Assembly (NCBI GenBank): GCA_958295875.1
Contig: OY282379.1
Span: forward strand, 1,364,001-1,428,000
Source of the DNA: an uncultured Pseudomonadales bacterium
Lineage (GTDB): Bacteria; Pseudomonadota; Gammaproteobacteria; Pseudomonadales; Azotimanducaceae
Reading direction: 5' to 3'
DNA length: 64,000 nt
Shown here: one piece after another, positions 5,203 to 27,077 of the stretch
How positions within the stretch are numbered: position 1 is the stretch's first letter
Layout of the letters: every line of letters begins with the position of its first letter
Made by a program: the position numbers and the translations under genes
Notes under the pieces: generated by a model
The model's input: the letters and a program-made list of their open reading frames with translations, nothing else
Databases searched by the model: none
What the model was told of the DNA's origin: nothing

Positions 5203-6711
5203 TCAACCGGGGCTGCTCAGCTTCTCCCGCACCACCCGGCGCAATAGCTTGCCGGTCTCGGTGTAAGGCAGTTCGGGCCAGAACTCCAAACGCGCCGGCA
5301 CGCGGGACGAGCGCAGCCGCTCCCTGACCCAACCCTGGAGCGTTTCCGCGGTGACTTCTGCGCCCGGCTCCAGCACCACCGCAGCCGCCACGGCCTCGCC
5401 CCACTCTTTGTCTGGAACGCCCACGATGGCAGCATCGAACACCGCCTCGTGCTCCATGAGGGTGTCCTCGATTTCGCCTGGCGACATGTTCTCGCCGCCA
5501 CGCACGATGATGTCGTCGGCGCGCCCGGCAAGGAACAAGTAACCCGCTGCGTCCAGATAGCCGGCATCGCGGGTGGGGAACCAGCCATCGGCGTCGGTTT
5601 GGCTGCCGCGGCCCTCATACTCGCCGGACACCTGCTCGCCGCGCACAAACACCTCGCCATGCCCGCCGACGCCCAACGGCTGGCCGGCGTCGTCGCGAAT
5701 CTCGATTTCGATGCCCGGCAGCGGAATGCCGACCGACGTGAGCCGCTTCTTCACCGCCGGGTCGTCGCTGGCGGCCGCGGCGCGATGTTCGTCCGGCCCC
5801 AACAGGGTGATGGTGGAGCTGGTCTCCGTGAGGCCGTAGGCATTGGTGAAGTCTGTGTCTGGAAACAGCTGCATCGCCCGCTCCACCACCGGCAAGGGCA
5901 TCTTGCCGCCACCGAAGGACAGCGACTCCAAGTGCGGCATGTTCGCGCTGGACTCGCCCTGCAGGGCGTCCACGATGCGGTGCAGCATGGTCGGCACGAC
6001 AAACGCCGTGGTCACCCGCTCGGCGCGGGCGAGATTGATCCACGCTTCTGGCGTGAAGTGCGGGAGCTGCACGACGCGGCGCCCCGAATAGACGGAGCTC
6101 AACACCGCGGCGATGCCGGCCACATGGTACGGCGGCACGCAGACGAGCGCCGTCTCGGCTTCATCGGCGGACATGAACTCCACGGCGCCCAGGATGTAGG
6201 ACACCAAGTGCTTCTGCCGCAGGACCGCGGCTTTCGGGGCGCCGGTGGTGCCGCTGGTGAACAGGAGCGCGGCGATGTCGTCGCCGTCCATGGACCATGG
6301 CGGCGGCGCCTCGCCTCCCGCCAACGCCGCGTCCAGAAAGCCCGACCGGGGCTGGGCGACAACGCCTTCGGCATCGCCCCAACGATCGATGCGGTCGTCC
6401 GTGGCAACCAGCAAGGCCGGCTTCACCCTTTCGAGCTGCGCGTCGATCTCGCTGTCCGTCAGGCGATAGTTCATCGGCACGAAGGGAACGCCGGCCCAAG
6501 CGCTGGCGAACAGGCCCACCGGGAAGGCCAAGTTGGTGACGTCGATCATGGCGAAGCGCCGCGCCCCGGAACCCGCCACTTCGCGCGCCGCGGCGCCAGC
6601 GCTGTCGTAGAGCTGCTGACAGGTGATCGAACGGCCGGCCTCGGCATCGACGAATGCCGTGCGGTCGCCAAAGCCCGACGCCGCCATCTCAAGCAGCATC
6701 ATGATGTTCAT
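5203..6711 (-). CDS. AMP-dependent acyl-CoA synthetase/ligase
   Basis: ANL-superfamily adenylating enzyme of 502 residues that activates a carboxylic acid with ATP and CoA. Visible motifs: the P-loop-like A3 motif LLFTSGTTGAPKAAVL (about 150-165), NAYGLTETSS (A5), the GRADDIIVRGGENMSPGEIED hinge and A8 region, and the terminal A10 motif LPYTETGKLLRR with its catalytic lysine. The substrate pocket cannot be read. GAGGGGAA lies 6-8 nt before the ATG. It follows the small 6773-7078 gene on the same strand, and probably also the CoA-transferase at 7208, consistent with a short acyl-CoA operon convergent with the two-domain CoA-transferase. Confidence 0.9.
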   Translation of the reverse strand: MNIMMLLEMAASGFGDRTAFVDAEAGRSITCQQLYDSAGAAAREVAGSGARRFAMIDVTNLAFPVGLFASAWAGVPFVPMNYRLTDSEIDAQLERVKPALLVATDDRIDRWGDAEGVVAQPRSGFLDAALAGGEAPPPWSMDGDDIAALLFTSGTTGAPKAAVLRQKHLVSYILGAVEFMSADEAETALVCVPPYHVAGIAAVLSSVYSGRRVVQLPHFTPEAWINLARAERVTTAFVVPTMLHRIVDALQGESSANMPHLESLSFGGGKMPLPVVERAMQLFPDTDFTNAYGLTETSSTITLLGPDEHRAAAASDDPAVKKRLTSVGIPLPGIEIEIRDDAGQPLGVGGHGEVFVRGEQVSGEYEGRGSQTDADGWFPTRDAGYLDAAGYLFLAGRADDIIVRGGENMSPGEIEDTLMEHEAVFDAAIVGVPDKEWGEAVAAAVVLEPGAEVTAETLQGWVRERLRSSRVPARLEFWPELPYTETGKLLRRVVREKLSSPG

Positions 6712-6772: not shown

Positions 6773-7078
6773 TCAGTCCGTCTTCGGGAGCTTCTTCGCG
6801 TCCTTCAATTTGAGCGGCTCGCCGCCGATTGCGAGAGACCCCTCACCCGCCTTCACGCACAGCACCTCGAGCTTGCCTTCCCCATCGGTGTAGCGCTTGC
6901 CCAACGTGGTGCCATCGGCAAAGCCGGCATCCACCGCGCCGCCGTTGCCGGCGCCATCCGCGCTCATCACCGCGCCGCCGCAAGTGAGTTCAACCTCCCC
7001 TGGCGGGGCGGCGATCACCATGATTTCCGTTTTGCAGACCGTGCTCTTGAGCCGCGCCCCTGTTGCGAGACCCGCCAT
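6773..7078 (-). CDS. Small conserved hypothetical protein in the acyl-CoA operon
   Basis: Protein of 101 residues without a domain I can name with certainty. It contains RLKSTVCKTEIMVIAAP, a cysteine-glycine pair (LTCGGAVMS) and a second YTDGEGKLEVLCVKAGEGSL segment; similar small proteins sit beside acyl-CoA synthetase genes in other bacteria. The two CxxGG- and C-containing beta segments could bind a ligand or metal, but this is not demonstrable here. The ATG has GAGGG about 9 nt upstream and a TAGAAT -10 about 34 nt upstream, so it may head the transcript that includes the acyl-CoA ligase. Confidence 0.6.
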   Translation of the reverse strand: MAGLATGARLKSTVCKTEIMVIAAPPGEVELTCGGAVMSADGAGNGGAVDAGFADGTTLGKRYTDGEGKLEVLCVKAGEGSLAIGGEPLKLKDAKKLPKTD

Positions 7079-7207: not shown

Positions 7208-8482
7208 CTAGGCGCGCTTAGTTCTCATCCAACTGGCCGCGTGCATCTCTTCACGCACGGCGGCCGCGTGCGCTTGCGCCGCGTCGACGTCTGCGGCGAC
7301 AAACCCCAAGTCGGCCATCACTGCCGCGGTGTGCTCCCCCAGCCCCGGCGGCGGCGCCGGCAGCGTGGTTGGGGTGGCGGCAAAGTCCATGAGCGTGCCG
7401 ACCGTCTTGGTTCTGCCCGTCACCGGCAAATCGATGTCCTGAACATAGCCGTTGGCCAGGTTCTGCGGATCATTCAACACATCGTCGTAGCCGCGCACCC
7501 GCTCCCAGATGATCTCCGGCTGCGAGGCGAGAAACTGCTCCCATTCCGCGAACGGCTTGGCAGCGAAGGCGTCTCGCACCAACGCCCGAATCTCCGCAAG
7601 GCCGGCATCGTCGCCGGTCACGCCGATGCGCTTGCCCGGCGTGTCCCACTCCTCCATCAGCAACGCCTCCGGACGATCCGCGAACAGCCAAAACGCCGTC
7701 CACGCATCGTCTGTCATCGCCACCACGAACAGAATCGGTACGCCATCCGCGCAGGTGTACACCCCATAAGGGGCCTTGATGCTCGGATTGTGCGAACCAT
7801 CGCGGCTGAGGGCCACGCCAGTCAGCGCCGAGTGTTGCAGCTCCCACATCTGCAGCCAAAGCTGCGCCCCCAAGGAAGAGGTGCGCACGAGTTGGCCGCG
7901 CCCGGTGGCGCCGCGATGCACCAAGGCCGTGACGCAAGCCAACGCCAGTTGCATGGCGCCGGCGTGGTCCGCCACCGCAGCCCCCGGCGGCATGGGCGTC
8001 TCGCCCGGCGCACCACTCATGGCCGCGAGGCCGCCACGCGCCTGGGCGGCGCCATCCAACATCGCCTTGTCTGCATCCTCGCCCAAGGGCCCAAACCCGT
8101 TGACATGGCCCACCACCAGCCGCGGGTGCTGCGCCGGCAACGTCTCTAGGCTGAGGCCCATGCGAGCGAGCGCCGCGGCGCGGAAATTGCTGAAGAAAAC
8201 GTCCGCCCGCCCCAATAGGCGCTGCATCACGGCGCGGCCCAATTCCGTATGCATGTCCAGCACGACGGAGCGCTTGCCCTTGTTCATGGCGACGAACTGC
8301 GAGCCCAAGGCATCCACCGGCAGCGTGTTGTTGGCACCGCGGAAATGGCGGCTGGGATCGCCCGTCGGCGGCTCCACCTTAATCACCTCCGCCCCCATGT
8401 TGGCGAAGTAAAGGCCCACGGCCGGCCCTTGGATGGCCGTCGCCAACTCCACCACCTTCAGCCCCTCAAGCGGCCCCGACAT
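7208..8482 (-). CDS. CaiB/BaiF family CoA-transferase (class III)
   Basis: Single-domain family III CoA-transferase of 424 residues, the usual length. It starts PLEGLKVVELATAIQGP, has ANMGAEVIKVEPP and GKRSVVLDMH, and the predicted nucleophile aspartate lies in GAAVADHAGAMQLALA (about residue 170). TGRGQLVRTSSLG replaces the more usual GQxVDVSLLE. These enzymes move CoA between acyl-CoA and a free acid without free CoA. The start has AAGGAGGG 6 nt upstream. It probably heads an operon with the hypothetical 101-residue gene and the acyl-CoA ligase. It is a different subfamily from the two-domain protein at 2782. Confidence 0.9.
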   Translation of the reverse strand: MSGPLEGLKVVELATAIQGPAVGLYFANMGAEVIKVEPPTGDPSRHFRGANNTLPVDALGSQFVAMNKGKRSVVLDMHTELGRAVMQRLLGRADVFFSNFRAAALARMGLSLETLPAQHPRLVVGHVNGFGPLGEDADKAMLDGAAQARGGLAAMSGAPGETPMPPGAAVADHAGAMQLALACVTALVHRGATGRGQLVRTSSLGAQLWLQMWELQHSALTGVALSRDGSHNPSIKAPYGVYTCADGVPILFVVAMTDDAWTAFWLFADRPEALLMEEWDTPGKRIGVTGDDAGLAEIRALVRDAFAAKPFAEWEQFLASQPEIIWERVRGYDDVLNDPQNLANGYVQDIDLPVTGRTKTVGTLMDFAATPTTLPAPPPGLGEHTAAVMADLGFVAADVDAAQAHAAAVREEMHAASWMRTKRA

Positions 8483-8622: not shown

Positions 8623-9396
8623 ATGTCTCGAAACACGGCCGACGTCGGCCGGGCGCTTGAGTTGCTGCGCGAAGGGTTGGGGCCTTTCGTGGAGCGTGAA
8701 GTTGCGCGCTTTGCCACCCGCGAGCAGATCGCGGACTTCATACGAAACGGTCCGCGCTCGAATGCCCATCTCAAGGAAGAGCGAATTCGCGAATGGGATG
8801 TTCACGTCCTGCTCAACCTAATGCAGCGGCGATGGCGCGACGTCTTCGCCGACACGCTTGGGCGAACGGAACGCGGGTTCGTCGGCGAGTTGCAGGACTG
8901 GCGCAACAAGTGGGCGCATCAACAGATGCTGACGTCACCGGACGCGGATGTGGATCGGGCTTTGGACACCACCGTTCGCCTTCTTCGCGCCGTCAAGGCG
9001 GAAACGCAGGCAGCGGAAGTGGCTCGGCTTCGGGAGTCGCGCAGAGCTGCCAACGCGCCCGATGGGAACGCGCTCGCCTCCAGCAGTGGCACCGAGCCGC
9101 GGTCGTCTGTTCCGGCCCACAGACCGGTGCCCCGTTCGTCACCGGTGTCGCAAGCAGACGAGATTCGTCTGTATGCGATTGAGAACTATGTGATGCGGTG
9201 GCGCGAATCAGGCAATGAAACGCTTGCCATCCGCGCTGGCGACGTCGAGCGCGAAATGGGGCTGCGCCACGTTACGCCCAATGTTTGCAGCGCCTTGGAA
9301 GGCCGCAAGTTCCAAGCCCAAGCCAACCTCGTTCTCGTACGCCGCGAAGGCCCGCGCCGAAGCACAACAACCACGTACTACTACCAACAAGGCTGA
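8623..9396 (+). CDS. HEPN-domain protein (Swt1-type) with C-terminal winged-helix-like domain
   Basis: Protein of 257 residues in three parts. Residues 1-130 match the helical Swt1-family HEPN domain (ALELLREGLGPFVEREV at the start) and include DWRNKWAHQ, an Rx4H motif (R94, H99) that in active HEPN proteins is the RNase site. Residues 135-180 are a polar linker. Residues about 185-257 form a compact domain (AIRAGDVEREMGLRHVTPNVCSALEGRKF) that reads like a winged helix. HEPN proteins often act in toxin-antitoxin or antiviral systems, but some are non-catalytic. AAGGGGAG precedes the ATG. It is convergent with an AbrB-type antitoxin gene at 9474, though that arrangement is not a classical toxin-antitoxin operon. 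Confidence 0.65.
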   Translation: MSRNTADVGRALELLREGLGPFVEREVARFATREQIADFIRNGPRSNAHLKEERIREWDVHVLLNLMQRRWRDVFADTLGRTERGFVGELQDWRNKWAHQQMLTSPDADVDRALDTTVRLLRAVKAETQAAEVARLRESRRAANAPDGNALASSSGTEPRSSVPAHRPVPRSSPVSQADEIRLYAIENYVMRWRESGNETLAIRAGDVEREMGLRHVTPNVCSALEGRKFQAQANLVLVRREGPRRSTTTTYYYQQG

Positions 9397-9473: not shown

Positions 9474-9725
9474 TCACTCTTCACCGGCCCAGCCGGCGGC
9501 GGAGGCTTCCCGGATCTCCTCCATCGAAAGGCGCTCCGTGTTGGACTGCGCCAGCAACCCGAAAATCGTCGACACCGGGTTCCCCGGGTTCCGTCGCAGT
9601 TGAACGCGATGCTCGGCGAGCAGATCGATGCTGAGCTTGTCGCCGGGCCGCACTCCAAGGTGCTGGAGCACATCCTTTCGGAGCGTGATCTCTCCCTTGG
9701 CGGTGACAGTGAGTGCGATGGCCAT
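9474..9725 (-). CDS. SpoVT/AbrB-fold DNA-binding protein, orphan MazE-like antitoxin
   Basis: Protein of 83 residues. The N-terminal 50 residues (IALTVTAKGEITLRKDVLQH then LGVRPGDKLSIDLLAEHRVQL) are a swapped-hairpin AbrB domain, as in MazE and VapB-type antitoxins and transition-state regulators. The C-terminal tail with SMEEIREASAAGW could wrap a toxin or oligomerise. ATG 9725 was chosen because the domain begins immediately after it. No PIN, MazF or other toxin frame follows in the 77 bp downstream, so it is orphan or regulates in trans. The nearest candidate partner is the convergent HEPN protein. Confidence 0.75.
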   Translation of the reverse strand: MAIALTVTAKGEITLRKDVLQHLGVRPGDKLSIDLLAEHRVQLRRNPGNPVSTIFGLLAQSNTERLSMEEIREASAAGWAGEE

Positions 9726-9838
9726 GACATGAAGCCTGCGCGTGGAGAGTGCCAATGGTAGGGCGCTCTCGCCTCGCCATCGAGGGCTCCTGCGGGCGGC
9801 AGTTGCGCGCACCGCGCCACCTAAGCGATGATGCCGCC

Positions 9839-10711
9839 ATGAACGACGCAAACACCCAACCCGTACGCTACATGGATCGCACGCGCCGCTATTACGAGGC
9901 GCAGGGGTTCGAGAAGTCCTATCAATGGGCGCAACACGATGACGTGCCATTCACCGCGCTGAAGCGGCCGCTGGCGGAGTCCACGGTGGGGCTGATCACC
10001 ACCGCGGCCTTGTACGATCGCGTGGAGTCAGACCCGCGTTCGGTGGCGTCCAACGCCACCGCCGAGCCGCCGCCGCGCCTGTACGCCGACGACTTGGCGT
10101 GGGACAAGCGCGCCACCCACATGGAGGACTTGAACTCCTATTGCCCCATCGACCGGCTGCAGGAGCTGGCGGCGGCAGGGCGCATCGGCCGCTTGGCGGA
10201 GCGCTTTCACTGCGTGCCCACGGAGTACAGCCAGCGCCGCACCATCGAGGAGGACGCGCCGGAAATCCTCAAACGCTGCCAGGCAGACGGCGTGGACGTG
10301 GCACTTCTCGTGCCGTTGTGACCCGTCTGCCACCAGACCGTGTGTCTGGTCGCCCGTGCGCTTGAAACCGCCGGCATCCCCACGGTGATCGTGGGCTCGG
10401 CCTTGGACATCGTGTCGCACGCCGGCGCGCCGCGCCATGTCTTCACGGACTTTCCGCTCGGCAATCCGTGCGGGAAGCCCTACGACACCGAGATGCAGCG
10501 CGCCATCGTCGGCGCCGCCATCGACATGCTCGAATCCGCCACTGCGCCGGGCGCGTTTCAACAGACGCCCTACGAGTGGGGCAGCCACGCATGGCGGCAA
10601 CGCTACATGGAGGTGCTGCCGGAGAACATGCAACGGCTTGCGGCCATGGGCGCGGCGCGGCGCAATGAACGCCAAGCCCGGCGCGATGCCGGCAAGGTGC
10701 GCGCTGGATGA
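9839..10711 (+). CDS. GrdB-family selenoprotein (glycine/sarcosine/betaine reductase B-like) with in-frame UGA
   Basis: Continuous frame of 290 codons if TGA at 10319-10321 is read as selenocysteine (residue 161). The sequence around it, LLVPL-U-PVCHQTV, gives a UxxC redox motif (U161, C164). The flanks are one family: ADGVDVALLVP before and VARALETAGIPTVIVGSALDIV after, then FTDFPLGNPCGKPYD. This is the GrdB/PrdB fold, in which the Sec/Cys centre attacks a substrate C-N or similar bond; proteobacterial members with CxxC exist, with unknown substrate. A 7-bp hairpin follows the UGA at SECIS distance. The stop overlaps the next ATG (ATGA). A weak GATGAT lies 6 nt before the ATG. No sel genes are in the window. 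Confidence 0.8.
10319..10321 (+). other. In-frame UGA, predicted selenocysteine codon
   Basis: TGA interrupts the GrdB-family frame at the position where relatives have cysteine of a CPVC-type motif. Homology continues in the same frame without any indel on both sides, which argues against a nonsense pseudogene or sequencing error. Confidence 0.78.
10332..10350 (+). promoter_or_regulatory. Bacterial SECIS-like hairpin after the Sec codon
   Basis: ACCAGAC and GTCTGGT form a perfect 7-bp stem closing a 5-nt loop, CGTGT. The loop starts 17 nt after the UGA and has G as its second base. Bacterial SECIS elements bound by SelB are hairpins with the apical loop about 16-37 nt after UGA and a G among the first two loop bases, so position, size and loop base all fit. 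Confidence 0.7.
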
Positions 10712-11916
10712 CGCCGACACGCCTGCGGCGCCGCGTCACAACACTGTGCGCGGCGCTCGGCGTCATCGCCCTCGCCGGCACCACATTCGGCGGCCCGCCC
10801 CATGTTGATCCAGCCGAGGACGCCGACCACTTCGGCGCCCCGGAATCGTTCCTGTTTTGGACCGCCGAGCAGAAGGTGGCCGGCTTTCGCAACACCGCGG
10901 CGATCTTCCCGGCGCGCGTCATCGCCGCCGGCGACGCCGCTTCGCCCATGCCGCCCGCCGCCACGCCAATCGACGACCTCCGCTTTGAGGCGGGGGGCGA
11001 GCCCTTGGACATCGACGGCTTCATGGAACACAACCATGTGGTCGGCCTCATCGCCCTGCAGGATGGCCAAGTGCTGCTTGAGCGGTACGCCGCCGGCAAC
11101 GACGCAGACAGCCTGTGGGTGTCGTTCTCCGTCGCCAAATCCGTGGTGGCCATGTTGATCGGGGCGGCCATCCAAGATGGCTACATCGAGTCTGCCCAAG
11201 AGAAGGTGACGAGCTACCTCCCGCGCCTCGCCGGCACCGCCTACGACGACGTGTCCATTGCCGACCTGCTGCAGATGTCCTCCGGCGTTGCTTGGAACGA
11301 AGACTACGCAGACCCCACCTCCGACGTGAACAACATGCCGCCGAACTTGGTGGACCTCTACCGGGCGCTGGCCGCCAAGGAGCGCGTGGGAGTCACCGGC
11401 GAAGTGTTCAACTACAACACGGCTGAGACGAACTTGGTCGGAGCCGTGCTGCGGGCCGCGATCGGCAACAACCTGGCCACCTACCTCTCGCACAAAGTTT
11501 GGCGGCCGTTCGGCATGCAGGCGCCGGCGAACTGGATGACCCATGGCCCAGATGGCGGCGAGCTCGGCGGCTGCTGCATCAGCGCAACCTTGCGGGATTA
11601 CGCGCGCATTGGCCTGTTCGCGCTGGCCGATGGGGTGCTGGCGAACGGCGAACGGGTGCTGCCGGCGGGCTGGATGGCGGCATCGACGACGCCGGCCAAG
11701 GGCTATGCCGGCTATGGCTATCTTTGGTGGCTGCAAGGCGATGGCGCCTTCAACGCCTTGGGCATCTTCGGGCAATCCATCCACGTTGATCCGGCGCGCC
11801 GCTTGGTGGTGGTCACGCACAGCGCTTGGCCAGTGGCAGTGGGGCAGCCGTTCAGCGAACGCCGGAGCGCGTTCCTCGAAGCATTGGCCCAGCACTTGGA
11901 CGACAACCTGGGGTGA
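10708..11916 (+). CDS. Secreted or periplasmic serine hydrolase, beta-lactamase/class C family
   Basis: Protein of 402 residues with a basic N-terminus and hydrophobic stretch (LCAALGVIALAGTTFGG), a likely signal peptide. The serine beta-lactamase-like fold shows the SxxK motif SVAK (S141, K144) and the YxN motif FNYNT (Y236, N238). Length and motifs fit the class C/esterase/D-aminopeptidase group rather than a true beta-lactamase; the substrate is unknown. Its ATG overlaps the stop of the selenoprotein gene (ATGA), so translation is probably coupled to read-through of the upstream UGA. Confidence 0.85.
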   Translation: MTPTRLRRRVTTLCAALGVIALAGTTFGGPPHVDPAEDADHFGAPESFLFWTAEQKVAGFRNTAAIFPARVIAAGDAASPMPPAATPIDDLRFEAGGEPLDIDGFMEHNHVVGLIALQDGQVLLERYAAGNDADSLWVSFSVAKSVVAMLIGAAIQDGYIESAQEKVTSYLPRLAGTAYDDVSIADLLQMSSGVAWNEDYADPTSDVNNMPPNLVDLYRALAAKERVGVTGEVFNYNTAETNLVGAVLRAAIGNNLATYLSHKVWRPFGMQAPANWMTHGPDGGELGGCCISATLRDYARIGLFALADGVLANGERVLPAGWMAASTTPAKGYAGYGYLWWLQGDGAFNALGIFGQSIHVDPARRLVVVTHSAWPVAVGQPFSERRSAFLEALAQHLDDNLG

Positions 11917-11971: not shown

Positions 11972-12307
11972 ATGATCTACGAAATTCGCAACTACCACTA
12001 CGCGCCGGAGCGGCTCGCCGAGTACCGCGTTTGGGCAACAGAGGTGGCGCTGCCATACATCCGCAGCCACATGGATCTCGTGGGCTTCTGGCTGAACCTG
12101 GACGAGCCGGCGCAAGTCGCCGGCACGCCACAGGACGAGCTCGGCGCCGCCACCGTCACCTGGATCATCCGTTGGGATTCCATGGCGGCGCGGAACGCGG
12201 GGATGGCCAAAGCCTTTGGCAGCGATGCTTGGGAACGCATCATGGATCAGAACCCCGGCCGCGAGAACTACCTGCGCACCGAAGCGAAGTTCGCCGAAGC
12301 CCTCTGA
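11972..12307 (+). CDS. NIPSNAP family protein
   Basis: Small alpha/beta-barrel protein of 111 residues beginning MIYEIRNYHYAPERLAEY, the classical NIPSNAP start, with WDSMAARNAGMAKAF in the second half. NIPSNAP domains form ferredoxin-like dimers; bacterial members often sit beside catabolic genes, and their role is unclear. GACAGAGAG precedes the ATG. It follows the serine hydrolase on the same strand by 55 bp and may share its transcript. Confidence 0.85.
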   Translation: MIYEIRNYHYAPERLAEYRVWATEVALPYIRSHMDLVGFWLNLDEPAQVAGTPQDELGAATVTWIIRWDSMAARNAGMAKAFGSDAWERIMDQNPGRENYLRTEAKFAEAL

Positions 12308-26865: not shown

Positions 26866-27077
26866 CCGTCTCCCGATGACGCCGCTGTTGGGCTTGCCCT
26901 GAGCCGTCTAGGCTCAGAGCGGGGATTCGTATGGACGCACAAGGCTTCCCGCGGCAGCCACCCCAAAGCGGTGATGGCCGCCCGGCATCGGGCCTGCACA
27001 CCGGGCCCACAGCGGACTCCCCTTTTACTTCTTAACGGCTCAAGGACGACACCAACTGGCGCGCGCCTCAGGAGACT
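26866..27077 (-). ncRNA. ssrS: 6S RNA
   Basis: The ~210-nt segment between zapA and the 5-formyl-THF cyclo-ligase gene is where 6S RNA lies in gammaproteobacteria. The ends pair: GTCTCC near the 5' end with GGAGAC near the 3' end. An internal hairpin CTGAGCC-TAGAC-GGCTCAG is in the 3' half, and unpaired A/G-rich sequence (GTTAAGAAGTAAAAGGGG) can form the central bubble that mimics an open promoter for RNA polymerase sigma70. A TATACT -10 lies 7 nt before the proposed 5' A at 27077. It is about 25 nt longer than the E. coli RNA. Ends are estimates. Confidence 0.85.

Follow-up and report, generated by a model that had tools for sequence, protein, structure and literature searches.

A PrdB-like protein, very likely a selenoprotein, with no detected pyruvoyl-type partner in an uncultured gammaproteobacterium

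The gene at positions 9839-10711 of the window, by which we mean the whole stretch of 64,000 nucleotides analysed from an uncultured Pseudomonadales bacterium, very likely encodes a real selenoprotein, as judged from the Cys residues at the corresponding column of its homologues, the presence of sel genes, the conservation of TGA throughout the family, the covariation of a hairpin downstream of the UGA, and the selection acting across the UGA. We hold with considerable confidence that the product is a PrdB-like protein, that its UGA is very likely decoded by the organism's own SelA, SelB, SelD and tRNA-Sec, and that it likely works as a stand-alone selenol-thiol reductase, free of PrdA. The features of the gene are as follows.

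9839-10711, plus strand: probable PrdB-like selenoprotein gene, 290 residues with the UGA read as Sec
10319-10321, plus strand: in-frame UGA, codon 161, predicted Sec161
10328-10330, plus strand: codon of Cys164, second residue of the UxxC motif, a conserved column
10332-10350, plus strand: predicted apical hairpin of a bacterial SECIS, inside the coding sequence, supported by covariation

The reading frame begins with an ATG at 9839, contains a single in-frame UGA, and closes with a TGA stop at 10709-10711; re-reading of the sequence gave the limits 9839-10711 and the UGA at 10319 exactly as the first-pass annotation had placed them. The motif at the UGA is U161-P-V-C164, or U-P-V-C-H-Q-T in its extended form. 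It had also been expected that automated gene calling would truncate this gene, and the gene's own database entry (P0002, 188 aa) indeed ends in ALLVPL, at the residue directly preceding the UGA, which makes the gene a clear case of gene calling halving a conserved enzyme.

A search of the protein database returned 1517 homologues, and residue counts were taken from the best 120 of these. The UGA column is occupied by Cys in all 116 of the homologues among these 120 that span it, as the first-pass annotation had anticipated of the relatives, and the remaining four, P0002 included, end exactly before the UGA. Within the family, defined here as the taxon assigned to the window by the search tool (206 genomes in 37 genera), a match to the gene was found in 180 of the 206 genomes and in 34 of the 37 genera. 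An in-frame TGA is present in 149 of 150 family matches, among the matches listed, a count that takes stops anywhere in the match; when the exact column was read in 120 loci, a set that holds duplicates and two distant paralogues, it was TGA in 114 and TGC in 6. The column of Cys164 is Cys in all 96 Sec rows, all 32 Cys rows, and both clostridial PrdB rows. Furthermore, the same UGA occurs in a separately assembled genome that is 98% identical (G189/OY282519). For seven pairs of sequences, dN/dS was 0.06-0.17 over the 80 codons downstream of the UGA and 0.07-0.21 over the 150 codons upstream, so that the earlier statement that homology runs on unbroken after the UGA holds, with the downstream region conserved and dN/dS similar on both sides.

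Sec forms are intermingled with Cys forms in a tree of 130 proteins, which was built without the distant paralogues L063 and L135, duplicates, and proteins containing X, and which includes 24 of the 116 spanning database homologues. The tree requires 6 changes between the two forms, compared with about 30 in shuffles, and at least 4-5 of the changes are forced by well-supported branches. This interleaving suggests that Sec and Cys have been exchanged repeatedly at this position.

The organism's own genome is a single contig of 3,746,347 bases. The search for sel genes that had been proposed as a check recovered selA (515 bits), selD (268 bits) and a tRNA-Sec with anticodon TCA by model, while SelB was recognised by eye only, as a selB-like frame of 623 residues with an EF-Tu-like start, directly after selA. 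The two outcomes that had been named in advance as refuting a selenoprotein, a genome devoid of sel genes and a variable UGA column followed by an unconserved region, were both not observed. The selD match (G000:C1:2914649-2915545) sits in an open frame of 738 residues, which is more than twice the length of the SelD model, and is therefore probably part of a fusion. A second match to the tRNA-Sec model lies at G000:C1:3342317-3342401 (48.4 bits, against a gathering score of 47).

Among the 206 family genomes, selA was found in 176; for the 30 without it, of which 20 are listed, the TGA form is present in at least 11 genomes, the assemblies of which are rated 58-96% complete and include G115 (96%) and G037 (93%). 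When 369 other genomes sampled from the class were searched, 9 had a match to the gene. selA was detected in 6 of 6 of those with the TGA form, and no selA was detected in the three with the Cys form only (G252, G375, and G464). The TGA form in G440 (34% identity) and in G518 (29%) is a distant match.

The own genome also contains a second, distant PrdB-like frame (L063, 391 residues, at about G000:C1:3656811-3657422 on the minus strand), with the motif U-P-L-C-T-R-T and an in-frame UGA of its own. The hairpin of this frame has a z of -1.9, with 5 of 200 shuffles equally good, and the frame has no NCBIfam match at E<=0.01. In G518 and G440, possible relatives of it are encoded no more than about 4 kb from selA.

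That a Cys-type gene has here been disabled by a nonsense mutation, or was misread in sequencing, a reading to which the commonness of Cys homologues might lend itself, is so improbable as to be negligible and is already contradicted by the in-frame TGA in 149 of the 150 family matches listed, by the same UGA in the separately assembled genome, by the purifying selection that persists after the UGA, and by the presence of sel genes. It is very improbable, too, that the real product is a truncated protein of 160 residues for which the UGA serves as the stop, for example when selenium is scarce. Database gene calls do stop at the UGA, but such a product would lose Cys164 together with the second half of the conserved fold, and the similarity of dN/dS downstream and upstream of the UGA also speaks against it.

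The predicted hairpin starts at the 11th base after the UGA, where positions 10332-10338 pair with 10344-10350 to form a stem of 7 bp closed by a 5-nt loop, CGUGU, with G as its second base; the geometry described in the first-pass annotation is thus present. The folding energy alone is unremarkable (z of -0.8 to -1.7), and Rfam gave no match at the hairpin at its gathering threshold, so that a comparative test of the hairpin was needed. (The only match in the window at the Rfam gathering level is a 6S RNA gene at 26866-27077 on the minus strand, RF00013, 67.8 bits.) The comparison covered 92 distinct TGA windows, in which the U of the UGA is position 1; repeats of the same window, any window with an N among its first 42 bases, the six TGC loci, and the distant paralogues L063 and L135 were excluded from the set. 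Pairing was found in 91.0% of the hairpin cells, compared with 16.6-34.5% when the partner was slid, and the covariation score was 0.210 against a shuffled mean of 0.119, with none of 500 shuffles scoring equal or higher. Pairs that had changed on both sides were not in excess (3, compared with 2.4 in shuffles), and the outermost pair, 14/32, was unpaired in 35 of the 92 windows. For the inner pairs, columns 18/28 are G-C in 71 windows, G-U in 13, and A-U in 8, and never A-C; columns 19/27 are A-U in 80, U-A in 6, and unpaired in 6; and columns 15/31 are C-G in 39, U-A in 36, U-G in 3, and unpaired in 14. Fisher tests, in which relatedness is ignored, gave 2e-6, 3e-7, and 8e-12 for these three pairs, respectively. 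All six inner pairs are intact in 72 of the 92 TGA windows as opposed to 0 of the 6 TGC loci. On this comparative evidence, the predicted hairpin is more than a product of chance, and the compensatory changes in the 92 windows bear out the earlier proposal of a SECIS-like element. Taken as a reading of sequence, Sec would almost certainly be inserted at this UGA in vivo.

The first-pass annotation had assigned the protein to the GrdB family, and this part of it has to be revised, as PrdB is the closer relative. The top NCBIfam model was PrdB (TIGR04483; 113.5 bits, E=1e-32, residues 38-247 aligned to 20-234 of 238), for which the curated cut-off of 300 was not reached, while the GrdB model TIGR01918 gave 42.3 bits (E=5e-11), again short of its cut-off of 65.45, and the Pfam GRDB model PF07355 gave 21.1 bits, below the cut-off of 22. 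A PrdB of Terrisporobacter, the gene of which lies close to prdA, shows 33% identity over 213 aa, and its UGA-encoded residue aligns with U161. The residues in common with two clostridial PrdB rows are D97, P103, the UxxC motif, H165, R173, E176, R199, P206, G208, and G212. Judged by these comparisons, the protein is PrdB-like and not proven PrdB. It resembles the PrdB of clostridial D-proline reductase in a homologous stretch of about 210 residues, in the UxxCH motif, and in the Sec at the same column; however, it is about 50 residues longer, being extended at both ends, and has UPVCHQT where the clostridial protein has UGTCHRS. With GrdB of glycine, sarcosine, and betaine reductases it has UxxC in common and matches the C-terminal third of the NCBIfam models (E of 1e-8 to 1e-11), but these models have about 430 residues, of which only the last third is matched, and no GrdE-type partner was detected in the own genome with PF09338.

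Both D-proline reductase and glycine reductase require a pyruvoyl-type subunit, which is derived from PrdA or GrdE. The excerpt of PMC10838667 available may be compared on this point. Two models were used for this subunit, PF09338, a Pfam model that covers both PrdA and GrdE, and TIGR04480, which is specific for PrdA, and neither had a match in the single contig of the own genome. Of the 206 family genomes, 205 gave no match to PF09338, while this model found the subunit in 3 of 3 clostridial records that served as positive controls. TIGR04480, a model without a positive control, exceeded its cut-off in none of the 206 family genomes; its match in G148 was weak, at 31 bits. Neither model had a match in the 14 built-in control genomes, and thus PF09338 alone has a positive control. 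The single family genome with a GrdE-type PF09338 protein is also G148 (L161, G148:C195:56878-58110, 469 bits, a full-length match), and its locus may be a true glycine-reductase-type operon.

All 9 genomes of the genus carry COX1-family oxidase genes (PF00115), and such genes suggest aerobic respiration in the genus. With no partner detected and with these COX1 genes, the clostridial reaction is unlikely here; "proline reductase" is probably the wrong name, given the absence of PF09338 against its detection in all three controls, and the protein likely performs a different reduction, since the gene for the partner subunit was not detected. It could be argued that the protein is nevertheless a true D-proline reductase subunit, with its PrdA encoded elsewhere or too diverged to be recognised, as PrdB is the best curated model and the predicted Sec is aligned with the Sec of clostridial PrdB. 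We consider this improbable in view of the lack of matches to PF09338 and TIGR04480 in a genome that is a single contig, the detection of PF09338 in 1 of 206 family genomes against 3 of 3 clostridial controls, the score of 113.5 against a cut-off of 300, and the COX1-family oxidase genes of the genus.

The AlphaFold2 model has a mean pLDDT of 88.2 and positions residue 161 between a strand (154-158) and a helix (162-177), where, according to the model, an activated selenolate could be accommodated. The PDB and fold searches used an alignment (A2) of the query with 43 homologues from the 120 listed; no solved structure was matched by sequence at E<=0.01, and the matches from fold comparison were generic alpha/beta proteins. 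By analogy with PrdB and GrdB, we tentatively propose, as a guess, that Sec161, as a selenolate, would attack a carbon that is electrophilic and lies beside a carbonyl, in a C-N or C-X bond, to form a selenoether; that Cys164 would release the reduced product, leaving an Se-S bond; and that this bond would be opened again by thioredoxin or another cellular dithiol. With no pyruvoyl subunit, a Schiff base could not form with an amine, and substrates that can do without such a base are favoured. A precedent is FarB/FarE, the GrdB-like fluoroacetate reductase of Cloacibacillus porcorum, in which, according to the part of PMC10838667 available, a GrdB-type Sec protein is proposed to attack a C-F bond, so that proposals for the superfamily are not confined to C-N bonds. 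However, FarB has a GrdE-like subunit as its partner and comes from an anaerobe that possesses a glycine reductase system (PMC10838667, same part), whereas PF09338 finds no GrdE-type gene in the own genome here.

The Sec161/Cys164 pair might alternatively carry out general thiol-disulfide or peroxide redox chemistry, similar to that of Trx or Prx, instead of cleaving a bond in a metabolite. UxxC is a common redox motif (PMC1088965, in the part available), which is consistent with this alternative. Nevertheless, we regard it as rather unlikely, although it is the best placed of the alternatives, on the grounds that the protein shares its homologous core with the PrdB/GrdB group, the members of which cleave substrates, and that D97, P103, H165, R199, P206, and G208, beyond UxxC itself, are common to the two clostridial PrdB rows.

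The surroundings of the gene were compared in 37 loci, the window included, some of which are near-duplicates. The neighbours in the window are as follows.

5203-6711, minus strand: AMP-forming acyl-CoA synthetase, 502 aa, of a cluster present in 17 of 37 loci
6773-7078, minus strand: 101-aa protein, in 9 of the 37 loci directly beside the gene of the acyl-CoA synthetase
7208-8482, minus strand: CaiB/BaiF-type (family III) CoA-transferase, upstream
10708-11916, plus strand: serine hydrolase (beta-lactamase superfamily, PF00144), the ATG of which overlaps the stop of the selenoprotein gene
11972-12307, plus strand: NIPSNAP-family protein, downstream, recurring in 3 of the 37 loci when the window is counted

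A serine hydrolase had been noted beside the gene, and it does adjoin the gene here, but it is not a general partner; its close relatives occur in 3 of the 37 loci, window included, and 3 further loci have a different cluster of PF00144 serine hydrolases no more than about 6.5 kb away. Five of the 37 loci have members of one CaiB/BaiF-type CoA-transferase cluster, and five have members of one amidohydrolase cluster. The 101-aa protein has no Pfam or NCBIfam match and has 393 homologues in the protein database. Between the CoA-transferase and selenoprotein genes lie a gene for a Swt1-like HEPN protein (8623-9396, plus strand) and a short AbrB-like frame (9474-9728, minus strand) recognised by eye. 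At another locus (L022:3381-5291), the acyl-CoA synthetase in the vicinity of a PrdB-like gene is a protein of 637 aa that carries a glyoxalase/dioxygenase domain as a C-terminal fusion. The Cys homologues in Roseomonas and Haematobacter have different gene surroundings. No neighbour is conserved throughout the 37 loci, and the substrate is therefore not indicated by the neighbourhood. The acyl-CoA synthetase and CoA-transferase nearby hint at a catabolic substrate and at activated carboxylic acids, with the caveat that acyl-CoA synthetases are common enzymes and that the count of 17 of 37 includes near-duplicates.

Reports of abundant Sec-containing PrdB in marine metagenomes go back to 2005 (PMC1088965 and PMC2398784, in the parts available), so that the kind of protein described here was already known. 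According to these parts, "proline reductase PrdB" ranked third in abundance among the selenoprotein families of the Sargasso Sea set, with 42 genes and a UXXC motif (PMC1088965), and the GOS set contained 235 Sec and 110 Cys forms (PMC2398784). The gene described here probably belongs to this marine group, as the Sargasso and GOS proteins are likewise PrdB-related, have UxxC with Sec, and have known Cys homologues. In these papers the clostridial name is kept, and in PMC1088965 the clostridial reaction as well; no mention of PrdA was counted in either paper, and no discussion of the missing partner was found in the portions available of the open-licence literature, whereas the partner was searched for here and was not detected. 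What is new in this work is the test for the partner at the genome level, the conservation of Sec throughout the family, and the covariation evidence for the SECIS.

Sec-PrdB-like genes are among the commonest selenoprotein genes in seawater, yet they carry a clostridial name, and the partner that this name requires was not detected here. It is conceivable, though we would not put it above a speculation, that one of the most abundant marine "proline reductases" is in fact no proline reductase but an aerobic branch of the Stickland reductases that operates without a partner, in which the Sec/Cys pair alone would cleave C-N or C-X bonds beside carbonyls in compounds scavenged by uncultured gammaproteobacteria. 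One-contig genomes with a defined SECIS, together with the Cys homologues, make the question directly testable. If the protein is indeed a different enzyme, it would represent a widespread use of selenium, in apparently aerobic bacteria, for a protein without an assigned reaction.
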